A stretch of 36,475 nt of DNA, taken from positions 1 to 36,475 of the IMG/VR virus record IMGVR_UViG_3300025070_000106. The stretch is one strand, 5' to 3'. The translations under genes and the position numbers were made by a program. Positions 2,427 through 5,929 of the stretch are shown one piece after another (the stretch's first letter is position 1; every line of letters begins with the position of its first letter). Under the pieces are notes generated by a model. The model ran no database searches. It saw only the letters and a list, made by a program, of their open reading frames with translations, and was not told the origin of the DNA. The DNA comes from a virus.

Positions 2427-2456
2427 TGTCAAGCACTTTCTTAAATTTTACGGATA

Positions 2457-2568
2457 TATCACTTATGTGTACAGTTAAGTGTATTAACAAAAAAACTTTA
2501 AATCATTTAAGTGTTGTAGCTAAGTGTTTTTATAGATTTAACTAAGGACAGTTAAGTGTATCACTTAT
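2457..2568. repeat. Iteron-like TAAGTG repeat cluster
   Basis: Six copies of TAAGTG occur in 112 bp. Four are on the plus strand (TTAAGTGT at 2475, 2507 and 2552; CTAAGTGT at 2520). Two are inverted, inside TATCACTTAT at 2457-2466 and 2559-2568. The 14-mer ACAGTTAAGTGTAT is repeated exactly at 2471-2484 and 2548-2561, 77 bp apart. One further copy (CAGTTAAGTGT, 4070-4080) lies in the loop of a strong hairpin. They could be sites for a replication initiator or a transcription regulator; they lie downstream of the leftward promoter start. Confidence 0.65.
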
Positions 2569-2587
2569 ATGATTCTAGTTATACTTA

Positions 2588-2616
2588 ATTATATCAGAAT
2601 CTGTCAAGCCTGTCAA
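2588..2616 (-). promoter_or_regulatory. Perfect-consensus sigma70-type promoter, leftward
   Basis: On the minus strand the sequence reads TTGACA (2616-2611), a 17-bp spacer, then TATAAT (2593-2588). Both boxes match the bacterial consensus at all positions and the spacing is ideal. Transcription would start near 2580 and run into the leftward operon beginning at 2426. This is the best promoter I see in the window. The TAAGTG repeats sit just downstream and may act as operators. Confidence 0.75.
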
Positions 2617-3230
2617 TACACATTCTTTATCTGGCACCATAGTTTTTTAGTTTATGGGTCCAGTTACATATAGTTGCCTATTTTTTAAGCAGATTGCACA
2701 TTACTTATGCACATGAGATTGTCTGTTGCCTTTGTGGTTAACACTTCATTTTACTGATCTGTGTGTTTCTACATACACATATACGTATACCCCGGCCATG
2801 GCCCCTGCCCGCCCGTGCATGTGCAACCAGTAAGGCCCGATATAGCGCAATTCTGCCAGAAATAAGGTGATTCACATTGCATGCCTTTGTTTTTGCAGCA
2901 TTTTTTATGAAATGGTAACAGATCACCTATCTATTGACGTTCAAATGTGTGGCAAAAATACAATGTTGTGATATTTCTGCAACAAATCAAAAGACGATGC
3001 ACAAAAATACAGGAACAAACACAGAACAAACAAACGATACTTTATATATATAAAAGAAAAATACCCTATCCCCTTGAAAACATTACATATTCAAAAAAAG
3101 TGCAATCAATCTGCATTTTTATTTGTCAATGAAATCAATGGGTTAATCAGTAAGTCATTGAAAACATTAACAATCTTTTTTGTTGTGTTTCAAATCCGTT
3201 TCCTGTCTAATCAAATCATCGAAGGACAAC

Positions 3231-4171
3231 CCGACCAGCCAACAGGCTCAACAGTGGCCCTAAGATAAACGCTAGATAACCCTTGACTGCTAAGGCGACA
3301 TAGGGCTAGGCTTACCAGACTAGAAGAACCCAAGCCTGTCAGGCTTAGCGCGTGCCTTTAGGGGATAACACGTTACCCGGTCGGTGGAAATCCAAGGGGC
3401 TAGGCAGAGAGCATGTAGGCGCAGCGCAGTGAGGGTTCAAACTAGGCCAACCGATAGGCCAATAGAATTCGGTGTAGCTTGCAAGGCTAGGGTTTGCCCA
3501 TATAGCAAGCGAAGATAAAAAAACCCTTGACTAACGAATTAGACTAGACTAGAGTAAAAGAACAGTCGGGAAGGCGAATTGATCCGACTATAAAGTGGCC
3601 AAGACGAAAGACGGTTTAGGTGAGCAGACGCAACAGCAAGCCTCAATTAGACAACATAGGTTAACCGTCTATAAAGAAACGAACTCTCACTGTGACGTGG
3701 ACAGGGCGTAGGCTACCAGAGTCTGTCAAGGCTAGGAAACTACCTTGAAACAGCACCGGCTACCAAGGCGGCAGGTGTATGACAAGACAAGACCAAGCGT
3801 AAATCTCTGGGGTGGTCAATGTGAAAAGGGCGTAAAAGAGCAACAATGCACAAGGCATGGCTGGTATATCTTGACCTTGTGCAACCTAGCATCGGGGGCA
3901 TGTTAGGTTTCTAAATATACCAACTCAATCGACATTCTATGTTTAGCTGATACCCTAGCAACCCTTGGGTTTGCCGTTGACGCAACACATGTAAAAACTG
4001 ACGATAGCAAGTCAGGTGAAAATTGAGATATGACAAGATACCGGCGACGATGCGCTAGTCCTTTGTGGGCAGTTAAGTGTTGTCGCCGGTAAATCTCTTG
4101 ACAGGTATGATTAGGGGGTGTAATGTCACACCCATAACCAGTCAGGTGGTGAGGAAAGTAAGCCACTTGAC
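3231..4171 (+). ncRNA. Candidate large structured non-coding RNA
   Basis: Complementary segments can be paired by hand almost without a break over 940 nt. Examples: 3231-3236/3379-3384 enclosing 3257-3262/3301-3306, 3332-3337/3341-3346 and 3350-3354/3369-3373; 3477-3482/3505-3510 with a nested GGG/CCC; 3564-3570/3583-3589; 3609-3616/3663-3670 (8 bp); 3726-3731/3743-3748; 3847-3855/3875-3883 (9 bp); 3884-3892/3900-3908; 3924-3929/4022-4027 enclosing 3998-4002/4011-4015; 4040-4048/4082-4090 (9 bp perfect); 4116-4121/4128-4133; 4141-4149/4163-4171 (9 bp with one G-U). Length and position near a phage tRNA recall the giant ornate RNAs GOLLD and ROOL, but I cannot confirm any family. Strand is inferred from the rightward genes that follow. 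A long 5' leader is the alternative. Confidence 0.6.
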
Positions 4172-4198
4172 ACCCTAACCAACCACGAGGTGATTATT
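4116..4198 (+). promoter_or_regulatory. Leader hairpins and RBS of first rightward gene
   Basis: Two hairpins (GGGTGT/ACACCC at 4116-4133 and GTCAGGTGG/CCACTTGAC at 4141-4171) are followed by CCCTAACC, a short A/C-rich stretch, and a GAGGTGATTATT ribosome site directly before ATG 4199. The next leader, before 4667, has the same order of parts: hairpin, CCCCTAACC, A/C-rich stretch, GGGTGATTACT, ATG. The repeat suggests a shared post-transcriptional control element. Confidence 0.45.
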
Positions 4199-4597
4199 AT
4201 GTCTAAGCAAGCTATCAATGTAAATGTTAATGTTGGCTATTGGTTCCAAGGTTCTGGCCTGACTGGTCAGAATTTGTCTGAACATAACGAGAATAAGTTT
4301 CAGCGGGTGGCTACCAAGTACAAGCGCAAGACTGGCAACAAGTTGTCCAAGATGCGTTGTTACCGTGCCAGCAGGGTGGGTGCGCGTAAACTCAAGGATG
4401 AGTTTGGCACACGTATTCTGTCCAATTCCATCACAACATTCGAGATGCTTTTGACGGGTATCGACAAGACGTTGGATCGCAAGAACCACAATGTCGATCT
4501 TGGTGAGTTCAATGTTGCTGACATTGCCGATCTGGCATGTGCGCCAACAGGTGCATCAGCACATAAGACTGACCGCAAGCGCGTCATTATGTTTTGA
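4199..4597 (+). CDS. Hypothetical protein, first gene of the rightward early operon
   Basis: 132 residues, basic in the first half (ATKYKRKTGNKLSKMRCYRASRVGARKL) and more acidic near the end. I do not recognise a family. The start is ATG 4199, with GAGGTG 7 nt upstream; an in-frame GTG at 4190 overlaps that ribosome site and is unlikely. Being first after the control region, it would be among the earliest genes expressed, where phages often place host-takeover proteins. Confidence 0.65.
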   Translation: MSKQAINVNVNVGYWFQGSGLTGQNLSEHNENKFQRVATKYKRKTGNKLSKMRCYRASRVGARKLKDEFGTRILSNSITTFEMLLTGIDKTLDRKNHNVDLGEFNVADIADLACAPTGASAHKTDRKRVIMF

Positions 4598-4603
4598 CTT
4601 CGT

Positions 4604-4639
4604 GGGGGTAATGCTCTATCCGTAGGGCATTGCTCCCCC
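4604..4639 (+). promoter_or_regulatory. Strong intergenic hairpin
   Basis: GGGGG (4604-4608) pairs with CCCCC (4635-4639), and AATGCTC (4610-4616) with GGGCATT (4625-4631), giving 12 bp with a small internal loop. No T-run follows, so a processing or attenuation element is more likely than a simple terminator. Confidence 0.5.
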
Positions 4640-4666
4640 TAACCATACCAACCAAGGGTGATTACT

Positions 4667-4858
4667 ATGGATAAGATGGAATTTTTGGGACTAATGTTTA
4701 TGCTGACCGTTGCTCCGATTGCTAGTGTGTTCTCTGCAATTATGATTGCACAGACGGGTGGCTATTGGGTGTGGATTGTGGCACTCCTTGGTGCTACAGC
4801 TTCATTCATGGGTGGCTGGATTGTCCTTGCCATTGAGTTTATTAGATCAGAGGTGTAA
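4667..4858 (+). CDS. Small membrane protein with two transmembrane segments
   Basis: 63 residues. Two hydrophobic helices are evident: about residues 6-27 (LGLMFMLTVAPIASVFSAIM) and 34-57 (VWIVALLGATASFMGGWIVL), with charged ends. No family recognised. The start is ATG 4667 behind GGGTG; an in-frame GTG at 4658 overlaps the ribosome site. A role at the host inner membrane, such as superinfection exclusion, is possible but unsupported. Confidence 0.65.
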   Translation: MDKMEFLGLMFMLTVAPIASVFSAIMIAQTGGYWVWIVALLGATASFMGGWIVLAIEFIRSEV

Positions 4859-5855: not shown

Positions 5856-5929
5856 AGGGGTGAAGTGTTACGGAAGCACAAGTGGTTCCAACCCACTAGG
5901 ACAGGGTTCAATTCCTTGCACCCCTGCCA
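5856..5929 (+). tRNA. tRNA-Trp (anticodon CCA)
   Basis: A complete cloverleaf can be drawn. Acceptor AGGGGTG pairs with CACCCCT; D arm GTGT/GCAC with GG in its loop; anticodon arm AGTGG-TTCCAAC-CCACT with anticodon CCA at 5888-5890; T arm CAGGG-TTCAATT-CCTTG. Discriminator G and a genomically encoded CCA end follow. Acceptor and discriminator match bacterial tRNA-Trp. One oddity is A instead of the near-universal U at position 8. It may help translation of the phage genes, or mark an integration-related sequence, as a tyrosine recombinase lies 3.8 kb downstream. Confidence 0.9.

Follow-up and report, generated by a model that had tools for sequence, protein, structure and literature searches.

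The segment at positions 3562-4090 of an HMO-2011-type phage sequence most plausibly specifies a structured, stand-alone non-coding RNA belonging to a new family, situated in the divergent control region of these phages, which would be transcribed early by the host polymerase and act in trans, probably together with a protein; this reading is given a probability of roughly 60%. The sequence analysed, referred to here as the window, is virus record IMGVR_UViG_3300025070_000106 (36,475 bases), and the closest named relatives of the virus are Puniceispirillum phage HMO-2011 and Roseobacter phages. Comparison with related contigs demonstrates, at the level of sequence, a folded RNA on the + strand that has its own promoter signal and is under selection. 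The structure is well supported by these comparisons; transcription and function we infer. The RNA probably represents a new family of large phage RNAs, transcribed by the host polymerase and acting in trans, with the adjoining protein as its possible partner. To our knowledge, very few large structured RNAs have been described from bacteria and phages, and what those few do is still unsolved. The RNA described here is unrelated to the known giants and is carried by HMO-2011-type phages of the ocean. It is short enough for synthesis and probing, both its start and its end can be predicted, and the co-occurrence of an adjoining protein makes both the RNA fold and the partner directly testable.

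Locus, promoters and boundaries

Positions 2433-4198 form a non-coding gap flanked by a leftward gene (2217-2432, 71 aa) at the end of the leftward operon and by the gene for P0001 (4199-4594), which starts the rightward operon. As the initial annotation had stated for about 940 nt of it, the gap lacks coding capacity: it holds no credible gene, and no open reading frame is consistent across relatives. Every complete relative with the rightward gene has a gap of 1.3-1.77 kb, and in relatives the 900 nt adjoining P0001 are higher in GC than the sequence further upstream. The + strand of 3216-4195 folds better than its dinucleotide shuffles (z -3.09, equalled by 0 of 20), and the - strand has no excess (z -0.01, from 20 shuffles only). 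The AT-rich part of the gap contains a CAGTTAAGTGTA-type repeat three times (2472-2568), which is operator- or iteron-like. An AT-rich palindrome, TATATATATA (3042-3055), adjoins the cumulative GC-skew minimum, and two exact copies of TTGAAAACATTA (3074-3085 and 3158-3169) lie near this minimum and form, with the palindrome, a candidate replication origin. Elsewhere in the window, 442-600 and 1349-1702 on the - strand encode small proteins with Lys/Met/Gly-rich repeats (MAKK, MRGGM).

Homologues of P0001 led to 45 IMG/VR contigs, whose loci (L numbers) include three groups: g1 (the window, L003-L013, L028, L030-L032 and L063), g2 (L034-L038, L040, L044, L046, L067, L070 and L081) and the AT-rich g3 (L045 and L047-L059; loci of 31-37% GC). 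The features recognised in the window are as follows.

3206-3211, + strand: weak -10-like element TCTAAT, from sequence, upstream of the 5' module
3217-3520, + strand: variable 5' structured module (RNA-1); relatives conserve its ATCG start and exchange its cassettes
3450-3473, + strand: hairpin H0 (ACCGA...TCGGT) of the 5' module, from covariation
3527-3555, + strand: sigma70-type core promoter TTGACT-N17-TAGAGT, conserved in relatives
3562-4090, + strand: core structured RNA (RNA-2), from the promoter before it, the terminal hairpin after it, covariation and fold z
3564-3600, + strand: 5' hairpin H1 (3564-3569/3584-3589) with a pseudoknot (3573-3575/3598-3600), from covariation
3609-3670, + strand: hairpin H2 (AGACGGTT...AACCGTCT), then AUAAAG; stem rewritten in relatives, as judged by reading and not by a pair-by-pair count
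3685-3826, + strand: long-range helix P1, closing the core (UCAC 3687-3690/GUGA 3821-3824), from shuffles and a tree-aware test
3695-3727, + strand: core pseudoknot, Pb (3695-3698/3706-3709) with its loop pairing to 3723-3727 (Pa), from shuffles and reading
3753-3778, + strand: hairpin Pc with a conserved ACCAAGG loop, from the alignment
3809-3820, + strand: most conserved motif, GGGGUGGUCAAU, from comparison of relatives
3848-3882, + strand: hairpin GCACAAGG...CCUUGUGC, GGCUAG-UUUUGU...UUGU-CUAGCC in most relatives
3924-4027, + strand: conserved penultimate domain; closing helix CUCAAU/AUUGAG here and CCCGA/UCGGG in relatives
3998-4015, + strand: hairpin CUGAC/GUCAG inside the penultimate domain, CUGCC/GGCAG in relatives
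4040-4090, + strand: terminal hairpin whose internal loop, GCGCUAG...CAGUUAAG, is conserved, from compensatory changes
4098-4126, + strand: next-gene promoter TTGACA-N17-TAATGT, directly after the terminal hairpin
4199-4594, + strand: conserved protein P0001, candidate partner, from co-occurrence with the RNA

RNA-2 is 529 nt long in the window and 488-538 nt in relatives. From 5' to 3' it consists of hairpin H1 with its pseudoknot, a pseudoknotted core that P1 closes, a variable 3' half rich in hairpins, and the large terminal hairpin. Its fold z is -2.1 on the + strand and 0.1 on the - strand; the z-scores of its relatives are modest, and the + strand is not always the better one. The core promoter, from which the RNA start in the window is predicted near 3562, lies in the RNAs tabulated 8-20 nt 5' of a small hairpin and mostly 215-260 nt 5' of the core motif. 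At this site TTGACn-N16..18-TAnnnT is found in 23 of 27 distinct relatives, the remaining four keeping the -35 with a different -10. In all 27 tabulated RNAs a -10-like hexamer stands 17 or 18 nt after a TTGAC-type -35, and a 28th, L047, was left unresolved by the pattern. The chance expectation for a match is 0.03 in shuffled 60-nt windows, a figure that should fairly be several-fold higher, yet far below one, since the windows were placed by a search of about 240 nt. The promoter keeps its position in relatives whose upstream sequence differs, and L067 and L081 are near-identical from it onward and unlike before it, so that it is also a module boundary.

On the 3' side, 4091-4171 comprises the next gene's promoter and leader. 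Of 43 relatives, 39 have a promoter-like match before P0001, which reads TTGACA-N17-TATAAT in the AT-rich group. A T-run follows the terminal hairpin in L067 and in few relatives overall, most having none. Because the core promoter lies before it, the terminal hairpin at its other end is directly followed by the P0001 promoter, and other genes lie downstream in L063, L067 and L081, 3562-4090 is taken as the RNA, which would be a discrete transcript with its 3' end at or near the terminal hairpin. The single RNA of about 940 nt envisaged by the initial annotation was abandoned on account of the internal promoter (3527-3555), the cassette boundary at this point (L067 versus L081), the assignment of 4091-4171 to a downstream gene with its own promoter, and the confinement of the fold excess to 3562-4090.

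The 5' module (3217-3520) has no fold excess (z +0.4). In relatives it has one to three tandem promoters, an ATCG-like start after each, and swapped cassettes; clearer TTGACx-N17-TAGTCT promoters, often in tandem, precede it in L012, L031, L032 and L081, and L112, L139 and L140 contain it without the core. RNA-1 may be a separate transcript or a 5' extension of the core RNA, and its variable cassettes would add to the exchangeable units of this locus. Insertions upstream of the core promoter occur in the window (3338-3448) and in L003, L061 and L135; these three have a different, GTCACTGG-type cassette in common, which suggests that structured modules are swapped between phages. In L139 and L060 the usual terminal hairpin is replaced by a different one with TGCCATGCAC, just 5' of the promoter of the next rightward gene, perhaps another family of RNA modules.

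Covariation and the fold of the core RNA

Relatives keep the fold while its letters change, which indicates that the fold matters. Helix counts were made domain-wise from anchors, with shuffles and slid arms as controls, and the helices counted pair by pair comprise, when pooled, 313 Watson-Crick, 35 G-U, 0 A-C and 6 other cells. The presence of G-U pairs together with the absence of A-C mismatches identifies the + strand RNA as the selected strand, and the strength of the comparative case lies in this asymmetry and in the many independent rewrites of stems.

Since the shuffle tests were run on related sequences, the following shuffle counts overstate significance: H1 with its loop pseudoknot is 100% paired in 6 distinct rows, with two-sided change in 6 of 9 pairs and a covariation score reached by 0 of 500 shuffles (slid controls are only 22-43% paired); P1, whose arms lie about 140 nt apart, has 19 distinct arm pairs and 87 paired cells out of 114, where shuffles give 74.8 and 1 of 10,000 reaches the observed count; Pb occurs in 12 distinct versions with 46 of 48 cells paired (0 of 10,000); and H0 of the 5' module is 100% paired in 7 distinct gap-free rows, with two-sided change in 3 of 5 pairs (0 of 500). 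The H1 pseudoknot covaries among GGC/GCC, GCC/GGC and GCU/AGC, and for Pa the Pb loop is complementary, by reading, to the downstream strand in each group. All 48 cells are paired in the 8 distinct stems of the UUUUGU hairpin (3848-3882), and a further hairpin in g2 has two-sided change in 3 of 5 pairs. The terminal hairpin, examined in two groups, is 96% paired over 9 distinct rows in one, with 6 two-sided changes, and 100% paired over 6 distinct rows in the other, with 8. A home-made, R-scape-like tree-aware test on 29 core rows is more cautious, in that only two pairs reached E<0.05, one in P1 (E=0.033) and one in the UUUUGU hairpin (E=0.035). RNAalifold over all three groups jointly yielded no more than 3 pairs, since the core exists in two alternative versions that MAFFT is unable to align.

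The proposal of a large ornate phage RNA in the control region, for which the initial annotation had named covariation as a check, thus holds up, with compensatory changes in H1, the terminal hairpin, P1, Pb, the UUUUGU hairpin, the g2 hairpin and H0. Among the enclosing helices it had singled out, 3924-4027 and 4040-4090 are conserved, the latter with abundant compensatory changes, and the pairing of 3231-3384 is not kept. This last helix was discarded, its 3' arm lying inside an insertion (about 3338-3448) found only in near-identical copies.

Distribution, the adjoining protein and competing explanations

HMO-2011-type phages are described as a dominant and widespread group of the ocean, and their isolates infect SAR11, SAR116 and Roseobacter; the paper describing them makes no mention of non-coding RNA (PMC9038755), and a literature search found no description of RNA-2. 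A strict pattern for the core motif matches in 25 viral contigs and in none of 84,980 bacterial and archaeal genomes. The RNA was found by blastn with g1, g2 and g3 queries in no phage isolate; HMO-2011, CRP-1 and CRP-207 have no recognisable core by blastn or eye, at the sensitivity of blastn and motif searches only. It is absent from most contigs with the same leftward gene. Roseobacter phage CRP-207 (53416-54895; L180 917-2396), an isolate, has an unannotated gap of 1.48 kb at the same position, with an ATCG-containing stretch and, near the gap end, a 9-bp stem (GATGCATCA/TGATGCATC), perhaps a distant analogue within a phage that can be cultured.

P0001 is a largely helical protein of 132 aa with the motif STGLTGQNL. 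It has no Pfam, PHROG or PDB-fold match, a fold search with its structure model (mean pLDDT 81) gave no credible match, and its remote relative is HMO-2011 gp03. Among 52 leftward-gene loci with enough sequence, 11 have both the RNA and P0001, 2 the RNA alone, 2 P0001 alone and 37 neither (Fisher p 9e-8, not corrected for the relatedness of the loci; 4 loci were scored RNA-positive from blastn rather than a profile). L039, L041 and L132 have P0001 and no recognised RNA, and L063 has the RNA and lacks P0001 in its 8.8-kb locus. The co-occurrence suggests a ribonucleoprotein with P0001, an association that is suggestive only; the RNA probably works with a protein, for which P0001 would be the best candidate.

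The sigma70-type promoter points to transcription by the host RNA polymerase early in infection, and the independence of the RNA from the identity of the downstream gene points to action in trans, with a scaffold or decoy as the preferred, weakly supported guess. In a broader and more tentative picture, which may well prove wrong, the locus would define a new modular class of phage RNA, in which swappable structured cassettes, each behind a host-type promoter, stand between divergent operons and a pseudoknotted core of about 530 nt forms a ribonucleoprotein with P0001 as the infection of abundant ocean bacteria begins.

Most loci have the RNA directly upstream of P0001 with a large hairpin after it, as would befit a 5' leader that acts in cis, like a riboswitch, attenuator or antiterminator, and controls the early rightward operon from P0001; such a role is nevertheless unlikely, given the promoter that separates the RNA from P0001 in nearly all relatives, the different next gene in L063, L067 and L081, and a size far above that of known leaders. 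An origin-associated RNA like ColE1 RNA II, priming or regulating replication from the adjoining AT-rich region, is similarly doubtful. The cumulative GC-skew minimum at about 2-4 kb, the AT-rich palindrome at 3042-3055, the repeats at 2472-2568 and 3074/3158 and the length of the RNA II precursor, which resembles that of the window RNA, would agree with it, but divergent genes alone would also give a skew minimum, and the RNA is missing in most phages with the same flanking gene and is thus not essential for replication in the group.

That the RNA is a GOLLD or ROOL member which has diverged strongly is very improbable. The size class, phage origin, pseudoknots and a GOLLD-like layout with conserved 3' and variable 5' parts (PMC12286853) would suit such a member, but the covariance models of GOLLD and ROOL, like those of HEARO and OLE, have no match at E<=10 in 2433-4700 of the window or at E<=1 in four relatives, and a systematic tRNA neighbourhood is lacking. 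Least probable is a DNA-level element (cruciforms, or a packaging or integration site) or an artefact of assembly or composition: the region is non-coding and repeat-rich and the phage has an integrase gene, but frequent G-U pairs without A-C are unexpected for a DNA stem and largely refute this reading, and independent contigs from many samples agree.

Comparison with known large RNAs

At Rfam gathering scores, cmscan found no structured-RNA family matching the core in the window or in ten relatives; matches to eukaryotic snoRNAs and miRNAs in L005 and L180 were below these scores and were judged to be chance. ARAGORN and cmscan, applied to tRNA and tmRNA, group I/II introns and other Rfam RNAs, gave a single match, the tRNA-Trp (CCA) gene at 5856-5929, which few relatives retain. 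The initial annotation had put forward GOLLD and ROOL as candidates and pointed to the nearby tRNA. The covariance-model results do not bear out the former, and the tRNA proximity is incidental, an ARAGORN tRNA lying near the RNA in 4 of 27 related loci and always being the same tRNA-Trp. Its alternative of a new class agrees with the results in that the region belongs to no listed family.

GOLLD and ROOL RNAs are encoded by phages or prophages, often near tRNA islands, and form homo-oligomeric RNA nanocages. Like the present RNA, GOLLD is large, phage- or prophage-encoded and pseudoknotted, with an unsolved function, and its conserved 3' and variable 5' regions (PMC12286853) have a counterpart in the kept 3' core and exchanged 5' cassettes of this locus; this likeness is general and does not imply homology. 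GOLLD differs in that there is no match in sequence or structure, the locus has no tRNA-island neighbourhood, and many GOLLD members exceed 800 nt, against a core of about 530 nt here. ROOL is likewise a large phage or prophage RNA with several pseudoknots and has no known protein partner (PMC12286853), whereas here a protein gene co-occurs with the RNA, and both the match and the tRNA neighbourhood are lacking. OLE, another ornate large RNA, works with proteins; it gave no match, and its hosts are Gram-positive extremophiles and anaerobes (PMC9723947). HEARO, the omega RNA of IscB, is also a large structured RNA of mobile elements, but it gave no match and no IscB-like nuclease gene was noted beside the RNA: among the selected neighbouring proteins that were annotated, none is nuclease-like, and an HNH-like frame at 1089-1349 (86 aa) is far too short and is located on the far side of the other divergent operon. 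ColE1 RNA II offers an analogy, with no homology claimed, as a structured transcript of similar size near an origin-like region. The RNA at most works like an ornate phage RNA, and nothing in these comparisons places it in a named family.
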